In this document: positions 12,944 to 22,173 of the stretch, one piece after another
Position numbering within the stretch: position 1 is the stretch's first letter
How the letters are laid out: each line of letters begins with the position of its first letter
Assembly: GCF_000337735.1 (NCBI RefSeq)
Contig: NZ_AOHX01000025.1
Span: 44,539-108,538, forward strand
DNA length: 64,000 nucleotides
Source of the DNA: Natronorubrum sulfidifaciens JCM 14089
Lineage (GTDB): Archaea; Halobacteriota; Halobacteria; Halobacteriales; Natrialbaceae
Direction: 5' to 3'
The notes under the pieces: model-generated
Seen by the model: the letters and a program-made list of their open reading frames with translations, nothing else
The model's database searches: none
Told to the model about the DNA's origin: nothing
Program-made: the position numbers and the translations under genes

Positions 12944-13003
12944 ACTGGGTCGTACACTCGAGCGACTCGAAAAAGGTTCGGCTCGCAGCGTGTGTATCGC
13001 CGC

Positions 13004-13741
13004 TTACGGCCGGCGGATCGAGTGCGAAAGCGTGCCGACGCCCTCGATTTCGATCTCGACCTCGTCGCCATCGGACAGTGGACCGACGCCTTCCGGTGTT
13101 CCGGTCGCGATCACGTCACCCGGCTCTAAGGTCATGTAGGCCGTGATCTCGGCGATCAGTTCCGGAATGGGGAAGATGAGCTGCTCGCGCGAGCCGTCCT
13201 GTTTCAACTCGCCATTGACACGGGACTGCACCGATGCGTCGGCCGGCACCTCATCGGGCGTTGCGAGCAGTGGGCCAAGCGGTGCAGCGCCGTCGAACGC
13301 CTTCCCGCGAATCCAGTTCTGTTCTTTCTCCTGATCGTCGCGGTTCGAGATGTCGTTGACACAGGTAAAGCCCTCGACGACGTCCATCGCCTCGGAGACG
13401 GGGACGTGACGGCATTGCTCGCCGATAACGACGCCCAGTTCGGCCTCGTAGTCGATGCGCTCTTTCCCGGCCGGCGCGGTGACGGTGTCGTCGTGGCTCG
13501 CGATCGTGTTCGGCGGCTTCAGAAAGATCAGCGGGCGATCCGGAACGTCGGAGCCCATCTCATCGGCGTGGTCGGCGTAGTTACGGCCGATACAGACGAT
13601 CTTCGACGGCTCACACGGTGCGAGCACGTCGATCTCATCGGACTCGAGTGCATACTTTTGGTTCCCGAAGTGAACGTGACCGTTCTCGAACTCGCCGCGG
13701 CGGACAGCACCAGCCGGATCACGGAATCGAACGTATTTCAT
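13004..13741 (-). CDS. Fumarylacetoacetate hydrolase family protein
   Basis: This 245-aa single-domain FAH protein starts at MKYVRFRD (13741), preferred over the frame opening at 13768. Family marks are IVCIGRNYADHADEMG, the PPNTIASHDDTV substrate loop, the metal ligands in DYEAELGVVIGE, and the C-terminal GDVIATGTPEGVGPL. Relatives cleave or decarboxylate acylpyruvates, 2-hydroxyhepta-dienedioates or oxaloacetate with Mg2+/Mn2+. No aromatic catabolic genes are near, so a housekeeping acylpyruvase or oxaloacetate decarboxylase role is more plausible than a degradation pathway. Confidence 0.9.
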   Translation of the reverse strand: MKYVRFRDPAGAVRRGEFENGHVHFGNQKYALESDEIDVLAPCEPSKIVCIGRNYADHADEMGSDVPDRPLIFLKPPNTIASHDDTVTAPAGKERIDYEAELGVVIGEQCRHVPVSEAMDVVEGFTCVNDISNRDDQEKEQNWIRGKAFDGAAPLGPLLATPDEVPADASVQSRVNGELKQDGSREQLIFPIPELIAEITAYMTLEPGDVIATGTPEGVGPLSDGDEVEIEIEGVGTLSHSIRRP

Positions 13742-14002
13742 GCGGGATGGGTCGTGGCGTGTGGTCAAAAGGATTGAGATGGCGGCGGCACTCGCGCTGT
13801 CTGTCCCGTGGGTACGTAAGCAGTGCTGGCCCTACGTCACCGGGCACCGAGACGGCGTCGACTCGAGTGGATGTGACAGGAACGCAAGTACGTCAGTAAC
13901 TGCCACGACGGACGCAGAACGGAACGCTTTTTACTAGGCCGGCGCAATCGACTAATGCGTTCGAAGGATGCGCCGGAAACCCGGTGCGAGAACGCGATGA
14001 AC

Positions 14003-14077
14003 GCTCCGTTGGTGTAGTCCGGCCAATCATTTCGGCCTTTCGAGCCGATGACCAGGGTTCAAATCCCTGACGGAGCA
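14003..14077 (+). tRNA. tRNA-Glu (UUC)
   Basis: This is a complete 75-nt cloverleaf: acceptor GCTCCGT pairs with ACGGAGC, with discriminator A at 14077. The anticodon stem TCGGC/GCCGA encloses the loop CTTTCGA, giving anticodon TTC (Glu). The T arm contains GGTTCAAATCC. CCA is not encoded and no intron is present. The 5' leader contains a small stem (GCGCCGG / CCCGGTGC) immediately before the gene. Confidence 0.96.
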
Positions 14078-14206
14078 CTTTTCAACTTACGCTACTCTCC
14101 CTGAGTGGTACGACCGTTGGATACGCGCCGACCCGGGTTTGAGCGTCGATCAGACTCGAGGGGCGTCGACTCGGTCGCTCGAGTGGAGACAGTGTGTGCC
14201 GACAGC

Positions 14207-15310
14207 TTACGTGCTGGCTTCGGGAGCCAACGCCTCGTCGAGACGCGTGCAGCCGTCGGGACCGAAAATCGATAGCTGCTGTGCTGGGAGTGCAACGGCG
14301 ACCGCATCGCCGACGGTGGGTGGACTCGCGGGTTGCTCGACGACGAGGTCGTTTGCGGCGTCGACGCTGATCGTCACGTCGTAGCGTTTTCCGAGGTCCG
14401 TAACGCGTGTCACCGTTCCCGCCAGTGAGAGCGGTGTGTCGGCACTGTCAGGCGGTCGTATCGAGAGTGCTGTCGGTCGAACGTGACACGTCACGGTGGT
14501 TCCAGTCGGCAACTCGGTCTGTGTGTCGGTCAGCACGAGCTGTTGCTCACCAAGCGAAACCGTGAGTGGCTGTTGGTCGGTGATCGGTCCCGAAACAGTG
14601 TTCGAACGGCCGAGAAATGACGCCACGAACGCCGTCGGTGGGGATTCATACAGTGACCGTGGCTCCCCGGAGCCCGATACGGTGCCCTCGTTCATCACGA
14701 CGAGTCGATCAGCGAGCGCCATCGCCTCGTCCTGATCGTGTGTGACAAACAGCGTTGTGACACCGGTTTCCCGCTGAATGCGAGCGATCTCGTCACGCAA
14801 CCGTTCGCGCAGCGTCCGATCGAGTGCCGACAACGGTTCGTCGAGCAACAACACGTCAGGCTGGGGTGCTAACGCTCGAGCGAGTTCGACTCGGCGTTGT
14901 TGGCCGCCGCTGAGTTCGGCTGGATACGCTGCTCGCTGATCGGACAGATCGACCAGCTCGAGATACTCGCTGACGAGTTCCGTTCGCCGTTCGGAGTCGA
15001 TGTTCCGTGCTGTAAGCCCGTAGGCGACGTTGTCGCTGACTGTCATATGCGGATACAGCGTCGATTGCTGAAAGACGACGCTGATGTGGCGAGATTCGGG
15101 GGGCGTGTCGGTGACGTCTGCGCCACGGAGAGCCACCTGCCCCGACGTTGGGTGGATGTGGCCAGCGATCGCCTGCACGATCGTCGTCTTCCCACACCCA
15201 CTCGGCCCGAGCAGCGCGACTAGCTCGCCTTCCTCAACGCCGAACGAGACGTCGTCGACCGCCAGTTCGCTCCCGTAGCGATGGGTGAGCGAGTCGAGTT
15301 CGAGCATCAT
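14207..15310 (-). CDS. wtpC: Molybdate/tungstate ABC importer, ATP-binding protein
   Basis: This 367-aa ATPase energises oxyanion uptake. Walker A GPSGCGKTT lies at 35-43, the signature LSGGQQRRVELARAL and Walker [14 protein letters not shown] follow, and the C-terminal third is a TOBE-like region, as in ModC/WtpC/CysA proteins. The start is set by the overlap with the permease: ATGATG at 15310 overlaps the permease stop TGA (15307-15309), implying translational coupling. It is the last gene of a binding protein-permease-ATPase operon. Molybdate versus tungstate (or sulfate) specificity is inferred from the partner binding protein and from the neighbouring tungstate genes. Confidence 0.88.
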   Translation of the reverse strand: MMLELDSLTHRYGSELAVDDVSFGVEEGELVALLGPSGCGKTTIVQAIAGHIHPTSGQVALRGADVTDTPPESRHISVVFQQSTLYPHMTVSDNVAYGLTARNIDSERRTELVSEYLELVDLSDQRAAYPAELSGGQQRRVELARALAPQPDVLLLDEPLSALDRTLRERLRDEIARIQRETGVTTLFVTHDQDEAMALADRLVVMNEGTVSGSGEPRSLYESPPTAFVASFLGRSNTVSGPITDQQPLTVSLGEQQLVLTDTQTELPTGTTVTCHVRPTALSIRPPDSADTPLSLAGTVTRVTDLGKRYDVTISVDAANDLVVEQPASPPTVGDAVAVALPAQQLSIFGPDGCTRLDEALAPEAST

Positions 15311-16125
15311 TTGTCGATCACCGTTGGCACGCGCCCGAATCGCTGGACGGCTGCGAGAACGACGAGCGTGATCCCAAGCAGAGCCACCGCAAGCGGGACG
15401 ATCGCATCGATTCCGCCGGCGATGAAGTCGACCCAGATCCGCGTCGGCATCGTTCGTGGGTTGTATGCGACCATCATCGTCGCGCCGAACTCCCCGATCG
15501 CTCGAGCGAACGTCAAGCTGATTCCCGCGAGAATCGCCCCGCGAGCTAACGGCAGTGAGACGTTCCAAAACGTCGAGAGCGGGCCGTAGCCAAGCGACCG
15601 TGAGGCCTGTTCTAACCGTTCGTCAACCGCGCCAAAGCCTGCTCGAGCGGTAATGATGACGAACGGCGCAGCGACGAACGTCTGTGCGAGGATAACACCG
15701 AGCAGACTGTCCGTAAGCGGGAGGCCAACGGCGGCAGCGGCCGCACCGATCGGGGTGAACCGTCCAACGGCCGAGATGAGCATTGCGCCACCGACGACGG
15801 GTGGGATAATGAGCGGGAGGATCACCAGCGCTTCGACGAGTCGCTTCCCGGGAAACGACCGTCGGGCGAGGACGTACGCGAGCGGAACCCCGAGGACGGT
15901 CGCAATCGCAGTCGATACTGGTGCGGTGAGCAGCGAGTTGCGAATCGCGCCTTGGGCGGCCGGCGTGGACAACGCCGCGACGATGTTCGTCGTTCCCGTT
16001 CGTGAGAGAAACGTAACGAACGGGAGCGCAAAATACACGAGGATGAGTCCACCAAGGAGCGCCGGGATCAGTAGTTCCGTACTCCGTTTCGAGTGGCGAG
16101 ATTGCAGTCCAGTGCCGAGGCTCAT
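15307..16125 (-). CDS. wtpB: Molybdate/tungstate ABC importer, permease
   Basis: This 272-aa inner-membrane permease has six hydrophobic segments and the cytoplasmic EAA loop EQASRSLGYGPLSTFWNVSLPLARGAILAG that docks on the ATPase. Sequence style (ILPLIIPPVVGGAMLI, FARAIGEFGATMMVAYNPRT) matches the ModB/WtpB/CysT class. The stop codon overlaps the ATPase start, and its own start overlaps the binding-protein stop at 16122-16125, so all three genes are coupled. Confidence 0.9.
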   Translation of the reverse strand: MSLGTGLQSRHSKRSTELLIPALLGGLILVYFALPFVTFLSRTGTTNIVAALSTPAAQGAIRNSLLTAPVSTAIATVLGVPLAYVLARRSFPGKRLVEALVILPLIIPPVVGGAMLISAVGRFTPIGAAAAAVGLPLTDSLLGVILAQTFVAAPFVIITARAGFGAVDERLEQASRSLGYGPLSTFWNVSLPLARGAILAGISLTFARAIGEFGATMMVAYNPRTMPTRIWVDFIAGGIDAIVPLAVALLGITLVVLAAVQRFGRVPTVIDK

Positions 16126-17072
16126 ACGTCGACCGCCTCCGGCAGAGTCCCCGTTGGACGGGGGAGACTGTCCCCAACGGTCAACCCGGCGTCGACGAGC
16201 AACTCAGGAGTGTCGATGAGAAACTGAACGAGTTGGTGCCCGGCATCGGGGGCGTCAGCCTCGTCGTTGACCGTCGCGTTGTACAGGATCGGGCGGCCGA
16301 CTGCAGTGTATCCCTCCTCATCCGTCGTAAACTCGGCCGTCGCATACTGATCGGCCAGTTCGGGGGTTGCGAAGTTGTATGCCTCGGGGAACTCGACGAA
16401 CGGCATCCCGTGATCGACCGCCATATTGTGATAGACAATCGCTGCGGCCCGTGACCCGCTTTCGACTCCCGCCATCATCTGTGGCTCGTCCGGTTCCTCA
16501 TGAACGAGCGCCAACAGGTCGTCGCGAAAGCCCTCGAGGCCGTATTCGCGTTCGGCAAGTTCGAACGCCTGCACAGCGCGATAGCCGAGTGGATCGAGGT
16601 CTGGATCACCGATCGAGAGGTCGCCCTCGTCGGTGTCCAGTGCGATTTCATACCACGGCTCGCCGTCCTCGAGTCGCTGCCCAAACCGGGTGTTTTCGTT
16701 GTAGCCGATCCCGAGGCTGTTGGCGGCAAATTCGACGTCCCAGTCGGTGAACTCGCCGTACAGTCGGTCACGGAGAAGTGTTGCGTCGGCACTGACGATG
16801 ACATCTGGATGTTTGGTTCGGTCTTCGACCATCCGCATCACCGCATTTGCGCCGTAGTACTCTCCACGAACCTCGATTCCGGTCTCCGCTTCGAACGCCG
16901 GCCCGATGTGATACTCGAACGTGTGAGCGAGGCTTCCGGCGGACAGCACACTCACTGTGCTGGTGTCGGCTCCGAGACAGCCAGCGATACCCAACCCGAT
17001 GACGCTGCTCGAGGTCGTAAGCACCGTCCGGCGATGCACACGGTCTCGAGCGTGATCGCCAGTGTGGTTCAT
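16122..17072 (-). CDS. wtpA: Molybdate/tungstate-binding lipoprotein (WtpA/ModA type)
   Basis: This is an extracellular solute-binding protein of 316 aa from the start MNHTGDHARD (17072). A twin-arginine-like HRRTVLTT and a lipobox GIAGC near residue 33 indicate Tat export and lipid anchoring. The mature part has the ModA/WtpA hallmarks: VSVLSAGSLAHTFE (oxyanion-binding Ser), FEAETGIEVRGEYYGANAVMR, PDVIVSADATLL and IGYNENTR. The upstream frame to 17192 lacks a rationale, and a TATA box sits about 28 nt before 17072. Tungstate, molybdate or both could be bound; the sequence cannot separate them. Confidence 0.88.
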   Translation of the reverse strand: MNHTGDHARDRVHRRTVLTTSSSVIGLGIAGCLGADTSTVSVLSAGSLAHTFEYHIGPAFEAETGIEVRGEYYGANAVMRMVEDRTKHPDVIVSADATLLRDRLYGEFTDWDVEFAANSLGIGYNENTRFGQRLEDGEPWYEIALDTDEGDLSIGDPDLDPLGYRAVQAFELAEREYGLEGFRDDLLALVHEEPDEPQMMAGVESGSRAAAIVYHNMAVDHGMPFVEFPEAYNFATPELADQYATAEFTTDEEGYTAVGRPILYNATVNDEADAPDAGHQLVQFLIDTPELLVDAGLTVGDSLPRPTGTLPEAVDV

Positions 17073-17097
17073 GTTCACTTGTTTATCCTCGCCCCAC

Positions 17098-17103
17098 ATA
17101 TAA
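17098..17103 (-). promoter_or_regulatory. TATA box of wtpABC
   Basis: On the minus strand TTATAT lies 28 nt upstream of the wtpA ATG (17072), consistent with a leaderless transcript. It partly overlaps the proximal TAACC-n7-GTTT dyad. Confidence 0.65.
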
Positions 17104-17148
17104 CCATTCCAAGTTTCTATACGGAAAATTAGTAACCGATTTTGGTTT
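17101..17148 (-). promoter_or_regulatory. Paired operator-like dyads upstream of wtpA
   Basis: Two copies of the pattern TAAC-n8-GTTT are present, at 17101-17116 (TAACCATTCCAAGTTT) and 17133-17148 (TAACCGATTTTGGTTT), with starts 32 bp apart (about three helical turns). The first overlaps the TATA box, so a bound protein would block transcription. A related site occurs upstream of tupA. The nearby ModE-like gene is the obvious candidate binder. Confidence 0.55.
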
Positions 17149-17432
17149 CCAGCTATGTCGGTTCGGCGACGAAACGGACGCATGGTGAGCACCGTAAACG
17201 AGACTCGTTACCCACGTGCGTCTCGGCTGATACGGGACTGCGACACTCCGACTGATCGACCACGGCGTCGTGCAGACGCTAAGTTCGTTGTCCTTTGATA
17301 CGAACTGCGGTCGGTACGGCCCCATCGACTCCGCCATCCCGTACTCGAGACCCCAGTTCGTCTCAGTGGACAGACTGCTGTTGCCAGTCCGAAACGACGA
17401 CAGCGGTGATGCCAACCGACGTCGCTGGCCGG
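17149..17432. other. Intergenic, nothing further recognised
   Basis: This lies between the wtpA promoter dyads and the end of the ModE-like gene. Frames crossing it have no haloarchaeal protein character, and I see no RNA gene. Confidence 0.4.
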
Positions 17433-18137
17433 TCACACGCGTCGATCCGACTCGAGGTGGATCGCTCGTGCTGCGGTCGCTTTGAACGAAGCAGTGATCG
17501 GCTGGTCGGTCTCGAGCCCCAGCCGGGTTGCGCTGGCGTTCGTGATGAGCGCCTGCAGGGGACTGTCCGTGCCAAGTTGGATCGTCACTCTGGTGATCGC
17601 ATCGCCTGATTCGATGGCCGTGACGGGACCCGTGAATTGGTTGCGAAGGCTGGTATCGTCCGCTTGAGGTGTTTCGTCCGGGTCGGTCAGGACGACCGCA
17701 TCCGAACGGACCGTAACTTGAACCGCGTGGGCATCGTCGGGAACGAGCGCCAGTATCGAGCCGATGGCCGTCTCGACAGTCGCGAGTTCGCCCGTTCGCT
17801 CCCGAACGGTGCCTGGAAAGACGGACTCCGTGACTCGAGCGACACCGTCGAGTTCGGCCTCGTGGCGGTCGAACTGCCGGCGTAGCTCGTTGGCTGTCTC
17901 CGTAAGCACTGTGCCACCGCCGCCGCTCCCGCCCCGTTTCCGTTCCGTGATGGGGCCAACTGCATCCTCGATTTCGACGACACGGTTTTGCAGGCGGGCA
18001 TACGACCGACCCAGCCGGTCGGCTGCCTTGTGCATCGAGCCGTGCTGGTCGATCGCGTCGAGCATTTCGATATCGCGGCGATCGATCGTCACCTCGTCGA
18101 CCGCGAGCTTCGTACTGTATTCTTTTTCGATCGTCAT
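17433..18137 (-). CDS. ModE-like molybdate/tungstate-responsive regulator (HTH-TOBE)
   Basis: This 234-aa protein combines an N-terminal LysR/ModE-type winged helix (about 18-95; EMLDAIDQHGSMHKAADRLG, SYARLQNRVVEIED, GGSGGGGTVLT wing) with two Mop/TOBE oxyanion-binding units (about 108-165 and 170-232; FPGTVRERTG and FTGPVTAIESGDAITRVTIQL). The architecture matches E. coli ModE, which represses molybdate uptake when metal is plentiful. The start overlaps or abuts the tupC stop (18140), making it the last gene of the tup operon, so it probably regulates itself. Shared dyads upstream of both wtpA and tupA are its likely targets. Whether it senses Mo, W or both is unknown. Confidence 0.87.
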   Translation of the reverse strand: MTIEKEYSTKLAVDEVTIDRRDIEMLDAIDQHGSMHKAADRLGRSYARLQNRVVEIEDAVGPITERKRGGSGGGGTVLTETANELRRQFDRHEAELDGVARVTESVFPGTVRERTGELATVETAIGSILALVPDDAHAVQVTVRSDAVVLTDPDETPQADDTSLRNQFTGPVTAIESGDAITRVTIQLGTDSPLQALITNASATRLGLETDQPITASFKATAARAIHLESDRRV

Positions 18138-18139
18138 TC

Positions 18140-18943
18140 TCAGTAGATCAACTCTCCGTCGATAAATTTCTGCGCACGGTCGTCTGACGGGCGTTCGAAC
18201 ACCGTTTCGGTGGGGCCGACCTCGATAATCTCGGTCCCGAGGAGGACCGCAACCCGATCCGCGATACGCTCTGCCTGATGCATATCGTGGGTTGCGATGG
18301 CGACGCCGATGCCTCGATCCCGTGCCTCGAGGACGGCATCCTCGAGGACGGCCGTGTTCCGCGGATCGAGATCCGAGGTCGGTTCGTCGAGCAAGAGCAC
18401 GTCGGGATCGTACGCGAGTGCGCGGGCGAAGGCGACCCGCTGGGCCTCGCCGCCGGAAAGCGAGGTCGCCTCCTGGTCGGCTTTCTCGCCCAAGCCGACG
18501 CTCTCGAGGGCGTCGACCACATCACTGGTGGCGTTTGCTCGCCCGACGAGACTGGCGAGTTCGTGGCGAAGCCGGTCGGGCCACGACTGGCGAACTCGCA
18601 CCCCGTACTCGGCGTTGCGCCGCACGCTCGCATCGAAGAGACTCGCGTCCTGAAAGACCATGCCGATCCGTCGTCGACACTCGAGTCGGCGCTGTTCGGA
18701 CGCCTGCCAGATGTCGACGCCACCGTGGGTTATCGTGCCCTGGTCGGGCGCATCGAAGAGTGCAAGCAGTCGCAACAGGGTCGACTTGCCGACGCCGGAG
18801 GGACCGATGATCGCGACGACTTCGCCGGCCGACACCGACAGCGAGAGGCCCTCGAAAACGGGTTCATCGCCGTAGCTGTGGTGGATGTCGATCGCCTCGA
18901 GCGTCGTCGCTGCCCCCCGCACATCGGTCGGTTTGAGCGTCAT
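18140..18943 (-). CDS. tupC: Tungstate ABC importer, ATP-binding protein
   Basis: This 267-aa ABC ATPase has Walker [10 protein letters not shown] (47-55), a signature [19 protein letters not shown], and Walker [14 protein letters not shown]. It lacks the C-terminal TOBE region seen in the WtpC protein nearby, as is usual for TupC/phosphate-type ATPases. It overlaps the permease stop by four bases (18940-18943). Together with the TupA-type binding protein it forms the second oxyanion importer in this region. Confidence 0.88.
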
Positions 18944-19659
18944 CGGTAGCCTCCGTCGTCGCTTCCCAGTCGAACCACGATTGCGTTGACGAGCAAGACG
19001 AGGACGACGAGGATCGCGCCGAGGATCATCGCTGTCTCGTACTGACCCTGTCGGGCCTCGAGTTGGATGGCCGTCGTCAGCGTTCGTGTCTTCGACGTGC
19101 CGTCCGAGCTGGCGATGTTGCCGCCGACGATGAGGACGGAGCCGACCTCGCTGATCGCCCGGCCAAAACCGGCGAGCACTGCCGTTGCGATGCCGTATCG
19201 GGCCTCTTTGATCGTGACGAGCGCCACGTCGAGGCGCGTCCCGCCCATCGCGTACGCCGCATCGCGAACGTTCTGCTCGACGCTACTCACCGCAGCGAGG
19301 CTGACGCCGGTGATAACTGGGGCCGCGAGGATGAACTGTGACATGATCATCGCCTCGGGCGTGAACACGAGCTCGAGCGAGCCAAGCGGCCCCTGATTGG
19401 ACACCGCAAACAACACGATGAGTCCGACGACGACGCTTGGAAAGCCCATCCCGGTGTTGATGATCGACGTGAGCAACGCCTTTCCGCGAAACTCTTTGAA
19501 TCCGACGAGCAGTGCAATCGGGAGGCTACACAGCGTACTCAGCGTGACGGCGACGAGACTCACATAGAGTGAGACATAGATGATACTCCGGATGTAGTTC
19601 CACTCGAAGGGGAACTCACCCACGAACGCGGTGGTAATATCAACTATCATATCAACCAT
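18940..19659 (-). CDS. tupB: Tungstate ABC importer, permease
   Basis: This 239-aa permease has about six TM segments and an EAA loop ([20 protein letters not shown]). TupB features include [20 protein letters not shown] and [17 protein letters not shown]. The start may be the first Met (19659) or MIVDITTAF at 19650. It lies 221 nt after tupA, a wider gap than elsewhere in the operon. A TATATC-like sequence within the gap (about 19768-19775) leaves room for a second promoter. Confidence 0.88.
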
Positions 19660-19880
19660 CCGCTATCGGTTCGGGAGCGTTCTCGGAGTCGTCGTTCGCC
19701 AGACAACCAGACAGAACTGTAGTCGCAGCGCCAACGCCCCCGAGGCCCGTATGACGTTGTATCCCCATGGATATATCGCTGTTCGAAGAACGTATAGAGG
19801 TTTCGGCTTTCACAACTTCGGACAGTCGACTCGATCAACCACAAACGCGCGTGGTCGTCCGTCGTCGCGACCAGTCGACG

Positions 19881-20825
19881 CTACGAGTTTCCGCCGTCGT
19901 CGCTTGCACTCCAGCCTTCGGGCACGTACTGCTGGAAGTTCGGGGCTTCCGAAAGCGCTTCCGGGAAGAACAGTTGTTCGTCTTCGGTGGTGTAGTTCTC
20001 GATGATCTCCTGACCCTCGGGTCCCGTGATGTACCCGATGTACGCCAGCGCGAGATCGTAGTTGACGTGGTCGTGCGCGTCCGGATTGACAGCGACGATG
20101 CCGTACGGGTTCATCAGACTTTCCGGACCGTCTTCGACAGGCCCCTGAACGAGAATCTCGAGGGTGATGTTCCCGTGCATCGAGAGATACGTCCCGCGGT
20201 CGGACAGCGTGTACGCGTCGAGTTCGCTGGCCCGGTTGAGCGCTTCGCCCATCCCACCGCCGACGTCTACGTACCACTCACCGTGGGTTTCGGAGTCGAT
20301 TCCTGCGTCTGCCCAGAGTTCCAGTTCTTTCGTATGCGTCCCCGAGTTGTCGCCGCGAGAGACGAACGTCGATTCCGAATCTGCGATCGCGTTCAGTGCC
20401 TCGCTCGCGTCGTCGCTACTCGCGATCGATGCCGGATCGTCCGGGCCGCCGACGATGACGAAGTCATTGAACATGAGGTCGCGCCGGTTGATACCGTAGC
20501 CGTCCTCGATGAACTCGTCCTCGAGCGATCGAGCGTGGACCATCACCACGTCCGAGTCGCCGCTTCGCGCGGTCTCGAGGGCAGCACCGGTCCCCTGTGC
20601 AACGGTGTCGACAGTCACGCCGTACCGGTCTTCGAACGGTGCGTTGAGTTCGTCGAGCAGGCCGGTGTCCTCGGTGCTCGTCGTCGTCGTGAGCGTCAGC
20701 GTTTCGCCGCTGATTTCGGGACCGCCATCGTCGCCATCGTCGCCGCTGAGTGCCGTACAGCCGGCCAAGCCGACCGCGGCACCGCTTCCGATCGCCGCGA
20801 TGAACTCTCGTCGTTGTATCGTCAT
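19881..20825 (-). CDS. tupA: Tungstate-binding lipoprotein (TupA type)
   Basis: This solute-binding protein is 314 aa from [13 protein letters not shown] at 20825. A Tat-like QRREF start plus lipobox GLAGC (near residue 21) predicts an exported lipoprotein. TupA marks are [45 protein letters not shown] and [16 protein letters not shown], the conserved TTTS and GTG-Ala oxyanion contacts. TupA binds tungstate with high selectivity over molybdate in bacteria; that specificity is inferred here. The short start is supported by a TATA box 28 nt upstream, whereas the frame opening at 20900 would bury the promoter. Confidence 0.9.
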
Positions 20826-20850
20826 AGATACCACGTCAAACGCGGGATGG

Positions 20851-20856
20851 ATATAG
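20851..20856 (-). promoter_or_regulatory. TATA box of the tup operon
   Basis: CTATAT on the minus strand is centred about 28 nt before the tupA ATG, giving a leaderless transcript. Confidence 0.6.
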
Positions 20857-20869
20857 ATTTGGGTAGTCG

Positions 20870-20888
20870 AGTAACCGAAATCAGTTAT
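20870..20888 (-). promoter_or_regulatory. Operator-like dyad upstream of tupA
   Basis: AGTAACCGAAATCAGTTAT shares the nine-base block AGTAACCGA and the GTT right arm with the distal dyad of the wtpA promoter (17131-17148). It lies 14-32 bp upstream of the TATA box. It is a candidate binding site for the ModE-like regulator. Confidence 0.55.
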
Positions 20889-21194
20889 AGAACGTTGCAC
20901 ACTGAATCGACTTCGTACGACTGTACCCGTTTTTTCAGCACGGCTGGCACAGCAGTGATACCGGAATCAGGTACATAACCAAGAGCAATCGTTAGTGACG
21001 GACGCACTGTCTCGTCAGTGACGTCGGCTCGAGTCGAGCGTGCGTTTGGCGGCGGATCGGGCCCGCCCACGCCGCTTGCCGGTCACGGAGACTCATCGAG
21101 ACACCAATCCAGCTCAGACGGTGTACTGGAGTGACGTCCCGCCGATCGCCGACCCGTGCTGGCGATCGACGGAACATCGGGACAGCAATCCGTA
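20889..21194. other. Intergenic, nothing recognised
   Basis: This 306-nt stretch lies between the tup promoter and the 105-aa minus-strand gene. Apart from a looser TAAC-n11-GTTA at 20976-20994 I find no gene, RNA or repeat. Confidence 0.4.
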
Positions 21195-21512
21195 TCAGTG
21201 ATCGAGACTGGGTCGCTGAAACGTGGTTTCGTCCGTCGTCGGCTCCTCGAGTGCCGACTCGAGTTCCGGGGCCGCGAGGATTTCGTTTCGGGTGGGTTCG
21301 TTCGGCTGGTAGAAGTAGTACGTGTCCGCACAGCCAGCAACCAACTCCGAAAGCGGTCGCTCCTCGTCGTGGACAACCGATACGAGATCGCCCGTGACGG
21401 CGATCAACACGGCATCGGCTGGTTTGTACAGGGCTGTTCGAAGCTCGTCGACGGTACAGTCGGCGGGCACCTCGAGGAAAACGCCGTCGACGGTCACCCA
21501 TCGGGTCTCCAT
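21195..21512 (-). CDS. Small acidic protein of unknown function
   Basis: This 105-aa soluble protein with no recognised family begins [21 protein letters not shown]. The first 75 residues alternate beta strands with one helix ([33 protein letters not shown]), which could be a beta-grasp (ubiquitin-like) fold; this is only a pattern impression. The tail (75-105) is acidic and probably disordered. It is monocistronic on the minus strand, upstream of the tup operon by more than 300 nt, so no functional link is implied. Confidence 0.65.
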
Positions 21513-21684
21513 ACGCCTCCGTTCGGGCGTCAGCCCCTATACGATTGGGCCCGCAGCATCAGGTCGCAGTCGGCCTCCAGTGGCGCTGTATGCTCGTCGG
21601 CGACAGCGGCGTGCGTTCGCGTGCGATCGGTGCGTGAATCGTTTCGTCCGGCAGTATTACCCGTCGGCTCGTCCAACGCCGAGT

Positions 21685-22173
21685 ATGGACGAGCATACCC
21701 ACGACCCGACCGTCTCCCCACCGGCCGGCTCCGGGAGCCCGACGGGGTGGCTCGCCGACGACGACCGCTGGGAACACGGCACCCTTCGGCGGGCGGTCGT
21801 CCACGGTGTCCGGCTGTACAACGCCGGGGCGTACCACGAGTCACACGACTGTTTCGAAGCGGAATGGTACAACTACGGGCGGGGAACCACCGAGAGTGCC
21901 TTCGCTCACGGAATGGTGCAAGTCGCAGCGGGCGCGTACAAACACGTTGATTTCGAGACCGACGACGGCATGCGGAGTCTCTTCGAGACGGCGCTCCAGT
22001 ATCTACAGGGCATTCCGCGGGATTACTACGGCGTCGATATCCTCGAGGTCCGAACCACGCTGACCAACGCCATCGAAGAGCCGAGCGTGATCGACAACTG
22101 GCAGCTCTCGCTTGACGGCGAGCGGCCGACCGCCCGAGCGGTCGATTTCGAGTACGCGGCGTCACTCGACTAA
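21685..22173 (+). CDS. DUF309 family protein
   Basis: This 162-aa helical protein carries the DUF309 signature [27 protein letters not shown] (residues about 36-62, described in parts: the His-Glu pair in [12 protein letters not shown] is diagnostic), followed by [16 protein letters not shown] and [19 protein letters not shown]309 proteins are small, widespread and of unknown biochemical role; the conserved His/Glu residues suggest metal or substrate binding. The start [10 protein letters not shown] at 21685 is chosen because the longer frame from 21322 antisense-overlaps another gene and has non-halophilic composition there. It stands alone on the plus strand. Confidence 0.85.

Follow-up and report, generated by a model that had tools for sequence, protein, structure and literature searches.

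Upstream of a wtpA-like gene of Natronorubrum sulfidifaciens, in the 64,000-nucleotide stretch of DNA analysed here (the window), two copies of an inverted repeat stand side by side at a putative promoter. Are they an operator for genes of molybdenum and tungsten (Mo/W) metabolism, and if so, which protein reads them? A preliminary description had taken them to be paired TAACC-n7-GTTT dyads, laid out as for a putative dimer-of-dimers repressor, and had connected them with the ModE-like gene next door. The genes of the locus, for which some of the neighbour-protein calls are based on sequence reading or single-domain matches, are as follows.

14207-15310, minus strand: wtpC-like ATPase gene
15307-16125, minus strand: wtpB-like permease gene
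16122-17072, minus strand: wtpA-like tungstate-binding protein gene (NCBIfam WtpA match below the curated cut-off)
17433-18137, minus strand: modE-like gene, winged HTH plus di-Mop (TOBE), last gene of tupABC-modE
18140-18943, minus strand: tupC-like ATPase gene
18940-19659, minus strand: tupB-like permease gene
19881-20825, minus strand: tupA-like tungstate-binding protein gene

A tRNA gene (14003-14077, plus strand) lies immediately downstream of the wtpABC operon. The elements at the wtpA promoter are these.

17133-17148, minus strand: distal wtpA dyad, minus-strand reading GAAACCAAAATCGGTTAC, forward strand TAACCGATTTTGGTTT; best operator match in the window
17101-17116, minus strand: proximal wtpA dyad, minus-strand reading GAAACTTGGAATGGTTAT / GAAACTTGGAATGGTTATAT, forward strand TAACCATTCCAAGTTT; exact sequence, overlaps the TATA box
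17098-17105, minus strand: TATA-like element GGTTATAT of wtpA, about 26 bp 5' of the ATG (17072); putative promoter element

The two TAACC-n7-GTTT copies were confirmed at 17101-17116 and 17133-17148, 32 bp apart, and they lie far above chance. TAACCN7GTTT matches twice in the window against 0.09 expected, a number that none of 100 shuffles reaches, and has six matches in the whole genome (3.46 Mb). For the 32-bp pair, AACN8GTT-N18-AACN8GTT, 0.01 matches are expected in the window and one is present, which is also its single match genome-wide and stands at wtpA. The overlap of the proximal copy with the wtpA TATA box also held, since the copy runs into GGTTATAT. A distance of about 26 bp from the ATG is usual for the TATA box of a leaderless haloarchaeal transcript, and GTTATAT is present at this position in most relatives. 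The pattern exists as it had been described, but it was read off centre, because the true core is an 18-bp palindrome, G-W-AACC-n6-GGTT-A-C (18-bp consensus GAAACCGAAATCGGTTAC), and a third copy in the window, before tupA, had been missed. With a position weight matrix (PWM) for this dyad, the distal copy scores 30.9 and ranks first among 127,956 positions; the proximal one is a weaker copy, at 12.2.

Conservation upstream of wtpA orthologues had been named as the check that the dyads should pass, and they do. We collected wtpA orthologues with their upstream DNA and scored 64 Natrialbaceae wtpA promoters with a matrix trained on moaA and aor sites only. The best pair of dyads is spaced at exactly 32 bp in 52 of the 64, compared with 1.6% of shuffled promoters, and in a few further promoters it falls at 62-64 bp, owing to an additional dyad copy farther upstream. 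Across 125 Natrialbaceae genomes the 32-bp pair pattern has about 55 distinct matches, about 35 of which fall at wtpA; the reversed control has 4. Halobellus has a pair at 32 bp as well, and Halorubrum a less perfect one at 31 bp.

The search near other Mo/W genes of this genome and its relatives, also proposed in the preliminary description, found sites before tupA, moaA and aor too. The one in the window is a single dyad.

20872-20887, minus strand: dyad before tupA, minus-strand reading ATAACTGATTTCGGTTAC; TAACCGAAATCAGTTA; 61 bp 5' of the ATG

This site scores 25.8 on one strand and 23.7 on the other, and a dyad scoring at least 10 is found in 31 of 37 Natrialbaceae tupA promoters, mostly at -60 to -62 or -112 to -114. 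Positions are similarly constrained at moaA, where 61 of 71 promoters (one per genome) have the dyad and 58 have it at -69/-70, and at aor, which encodes aldehyde:ferredoxin oxidoreductase of a tungstoenzyme family (28 of 29 promoters, 27 at -72). In 436 kb of the window's own genome, the four sites of wtpA (distal, 30.9), tupA (25.8), moaA (20.3) and aor (20.2) take ranks 1-4 and the next-best site scores 14.4, with a matrix whose training set included the genome's own moaA and aor sites and excluded those of wtpA and tupA. One position-conserved site is thus shared by several Mo/W genes in many genomes. From its presence at moaA, aor and tupA and from the matrix ranking, we infer that the dyad is very probably the operator of a Mo/W regulon comprising wtpABC, tupABC-modE, moaA (cofactor synthesis) and aor (tungstoenzyme). 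Loose matches to the dyad number 13 in the genome, as they do in the reversed control, and those inspected beyond wtpA, tupA and moaA are coding or have no link to Mo/W genes. In another genome (G106, locus L414) a strong dyad, GTAACTTCCAGTGGTTAC, precedes a putative aldehyde dehydrogenase gene, a possible extra member of the regulon. The palindrome AAAACTGTAAACAGTTAT, upstream of a putative V-type ATPase subunit D gene at G000:C37:165789-165806 (L192) and in other congeners, is probably an unrelated promoter element.

The window also holds sites of another kind. The ModE box has the consensus CGTTATAT-n8-ATATAACG, and two boxes of this type are present where 0.10 are expected.

20812-20835, minus strand: canonical ModE-type box CGTGGTAT-CTATGACG-ATACAACG (CGTNNTAT-n8-ATACAACG), on the tupA start codon
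19755-19778, minus strand: second ModE-type box CGATATAT-CCATGGGG-ATACAACG, in the tupA-tupB gap

A box sits on the tupA start codon in all 31 genomes compared. Its right half is spelled with rare codons: ATA is used there in 31 of 31 tupA genes and CAA in 28 of 31, against 9 of 402 isoleucine codons and 24 of 272 glutamine codons in the rest of tupA; the left half, which is non-coding, is likewise conserved. A perfect box also lies between divergent modE and wtpA genes in Halomicrobium, Halorhabdus and G013. Given these locations of the classical box, ModE appears to have an operator of a different kind, and the neighbouring ModE probably uses a site other than the dyad. No inverted repeat resembling CGTTATRT-n8-AYATAACG was found at the wtpA dyads (17101-17148); within three mismatches, it occurs in the window only at 19755 and 20812. 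In this way the new dyad can be told apart from the classical box at the tupA start codon, a site type with which it is otherwise easily lumped. The preliminary description was only partly right in calling the archaeal ModE recognition sequence poorly fixed; by the title of their 2003 paper, Studholme and Pau reportedly found a ModE DNA element conserved in Archaea. Between tupA and tupB, at 19660-19770 on the minus strand, a short frame, MGIQRHTGLGGVGAATTVLSGCLAND..., resembles a truncated tupA start, and the 19755 box sits on the start of this apparent partial duplicate of the tupA 5' end, presumably a remnant.

The neighbouring protein itself had been correctly placed: by sequence and predicted fold, the product of 17433-18137 is a genuine ModE. 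Its N-terminal winged HTH gives 56.8 bits with TIGR00637, below the cut-off of 98.5, and in a phmmer search residues 15-90 match 1o7l/1b9m (E 1e-8), which makes E. coli ModE the closest solved relative. A TOBE domain occupies residues 162-222, with a conserved TS.RN motif. An AlphaFold model (pLDDT 82, from a six-sequence alignment) has E. coli ModE as its top Foldseek matches and also matches ModG and the ModE di-Mop domain. Both parts of a ModE, the N-terminal HTH and the C-terminal di-Mop oxyanion-binding domain, are therefore recognizable. Natronococcus genomes without tupABC keep modE, preceded at two loci (L164 and L170) by an apparent fossil of the tupC C-terminus.

Could the wtpA pair be an artefact, its proximal copy a BRE/TATA element plus chance and its distal copy a chance match? 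GTTATAT is indeed the TATA box, and the proximal score is low, but 52 of the 64 wtpA promoters have the exact 32-bp spacing and the dyad recurs at three other Mo/W promoters, which contradicts this reading; we reject it as extremely improbable. The identity of the reader is harder to decide. The link to the neighbouring ModE is doubtful, given the classical box at tupA, the genomes that keep dyads without ModE, and the rarity of tup-modE beside wtpA (among the type-1 wtpA loci compared, the block adjoins wtpA only in the window's genome). Alternatively, ModE might act on the dyads in trans. In its tungstate- or molybdate-bound form it would repress wtpA by way of the pair, and single sites would serve for its action on tupA, moaA and aor; its specificity in Natrialbaceae would have shifted or widened beyond the classical box. 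The dyad does tend to accompany ModE. It precedes the modE-containing operon in the 31 of 37 Natrialbaceae tupA promoters noted above, and the tup-modE operon of Salinibaculum, from another family, also has one upstream; among five tup operons without adjacent modE, four have no dyad and the fifth (Halobaculum litoreum) has one weak match. At moaA it is found in 52 of 54 genomes with ModE and in 9 of 17 without (Fisher P = 8e-5, uncorrected for relatedness; the counts come from related genomes, so P values overstate independence). The association is broken, however, in six genomes of 95-99% completeness (G007, G008, G021, G027, G031 and G120), in which neither a ModE nor any HTH-TOBE protein was detectable (TIGR00637 was also negative in G021 and G027) and which keep the moaA dyad and, where wtpA or aor is present, the dyads of these genes. 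In G027 the tupABC-modE block has been cleanly deleted with its flanking genes joined, so the loss is possibly recent; the wtpA, moaA and aor dyads are intact. The congeneric G007 and G008 have a common modE loss, and both half-sites have been kept although the flanking DNA has changed. The protein sequences are similarly divided: the recognition helix of this ModE clade, RSY[AP]RLQ[NRQ]R, differs from that of clades with classical boxes (RSYSRAHKR / RSYSRSQ[QR]R), as would fit a shifted specificity, yet the tupA genes of these genomes retain classical boxes, and G001 has dyads at moaA and aor although a differing ModE helix stands there beside classical-looking half-sites. Two further points speak for ModE, its retention in Natronococcus G088 and G093 despite the loss of tupABC, and the activation of moa by E. 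coli ModE in the presence of molybdate (PMC2408646), a functional parallel and not proof. On this evidence we consider it unlikely that ModE reads the dyads.

The best present candidate is a Bat-type HTH_10 protein. In many relatives, small HTH_10/BAT proteins (PF04967 plus PF15915) have their genes on the other side of the dyad from moaA and divergent to it (ancestral order rtcB-small gene-HTH_10 / moaA), and in the type-1b wtp operons of relatives an HTH_10 gene directly follows wtpB. Of the six near-complete, ModE-less genomes with the dyad, five have an HTH_10 gene at moaA. The moaA- and wtp-linked proteins are about 40% identical overall, yet their recognition helix, ISHQALSERLRRA, is the same; as proof of HTH_10 reading this is weakened, for HTH_10 proteins with no link to Mo genes have it too. 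The window's genome, like several relatives, has no HTH_10 gene at moaA or in the wtp operon, and none of this subfamily was found in the 436 kb (13%) of its 3.46 Mb that were examined. That absence, together with G021, which has dyads at wtpA and moaA and neither ModE nor this HTH_10 subfamily at the expected spots, would fit a third, unlinked regulator distinct from ModE and from the moaA- and wtp-linked HTH_10 proteins. No gene outside the ModE and HTH_10 families was found linked to the dyads, and the HTH_10 survey covered 13% of the genome, and we hold such a protein to be slightly less probable than ModE. The HTH_10 candidate itself we put at somewhat under an even chance, with a small remainder for there being no such regulator. 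Taken as a whole, the account that we favour, on balance, is that the wtpA dyads are one case of a Mo/W regulon operator whose reader is probably not ModE and for which HTH_10 is the best candidate.

Two other DNA-binding proteins were considered and rejected as readers. The first, a sensor-like protein of 675 aa with PAS-like and GAF-like regions and an HTH_10 at its C-terminus (L451:382-2409), has its gene immediately 5' of aor in almost every aor locus (L363-L392). Its recognition helix is another one, and it probably serves an aor-specific element. On the downstream side of the dyad, aor promoters have a further element in common, about GTGAGAACGACTAACA. A second wtpA-like class (L104-L109, L096-L098, L112, L257, L261 and L241) is accompanied by an apparent divergent Tfx-family HTH gene and has a dyad TCAAACA...GTGTTTGAGATAA (TCAAACA...TGTTTGA) over its promoter, possibly a second Mo/W operator system. 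Tfx was rejected on the ground that Tfx-like genes go with this different wtpA class and different dyad.

How the sites might act is suggested by their layout, from which we infer the metal response, the direction of control and co-operative binding. At wtpA, two and occasionally three dyads would face the same side of the DNA, their 32-bp spacing being three helical turns. When metal is plentiful, the regulator would occupy both dyads; because the proximal dyad overlies the TATA box, binding there should keep TBP/TFB away and switch uptake off. The single site at moaA and aor, at a fixed position upstream of the core promoter, would fit activation. At tupA, one dyad, usually upstream of the core promoter, would fit activation or a milder effect, and may add to the separate ModE site at the start codon. 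A two-layer circuit for Mo/W in haloarchaea can be proposed tentatively: ModE would act only locally, through the tupA start-codon box, and a Bat-type HTH_10 protein, of a kind so far unlinked to metals, would govern uptake, cofactor synthesis and a tungstoenzyme through the new palindrome, used singly or in arrays spaced at 32 bp. The literature that we searched contained no published description of a haloarchaeal ModE or W/Mo regulon operator, and the present analysis supplies a concrete candidate operator and a four-operon regulon for W/Mo control in halophilic archaea. It also allows a clean test of which regulator family reads the dyad and of whether metal supply sets opposite responses in uptake and enzyme genes.

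Several known systems resemble parts of this one. The haloarchaeal Bat/HTH_10 regulators NarO and DmsR, which control molybdoenzyme genes, have PF04967 and PF15915 in common with the moaA- and wtp-linked proteins of relatives, but the latter are candidate binders of the dyad only, and the examined 13% of the window's genome yielded none. The Moco RNA motif (PMC2408646) controls Mo/W cofactor and transport genes, as the dyad very probably does; it differs in being a bacterial RNA element, and an RNA switch was rejected here, the only Rfam match in 13000-22000 of the window being a tRNA. Tfx of Methanothermobacter (fmdECB; PMC3087415) is an archaeal DNA-binding protein in Mo/W-dependent control, as the reader of the dyad would be, whereas the Tfx-like genes of the relatives appear to go with the second wtpA class and not with the dyad studied here. 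The proteobacterial ModE regulon (E. coli modA and moa) differs in its site, since the dyad AACC-n6-GGTT, with 10 bp between half-site centres, is unlike the ModE box, a site of which kind is present separately in the window, at tupA. In content and arrangement it is similar: a Mo/W transporter, moa cofactor genes and a Mo/W enzyme, with one site over the transporter promoter and another upstream of moaA, and with a ModE homologue encoded next door.
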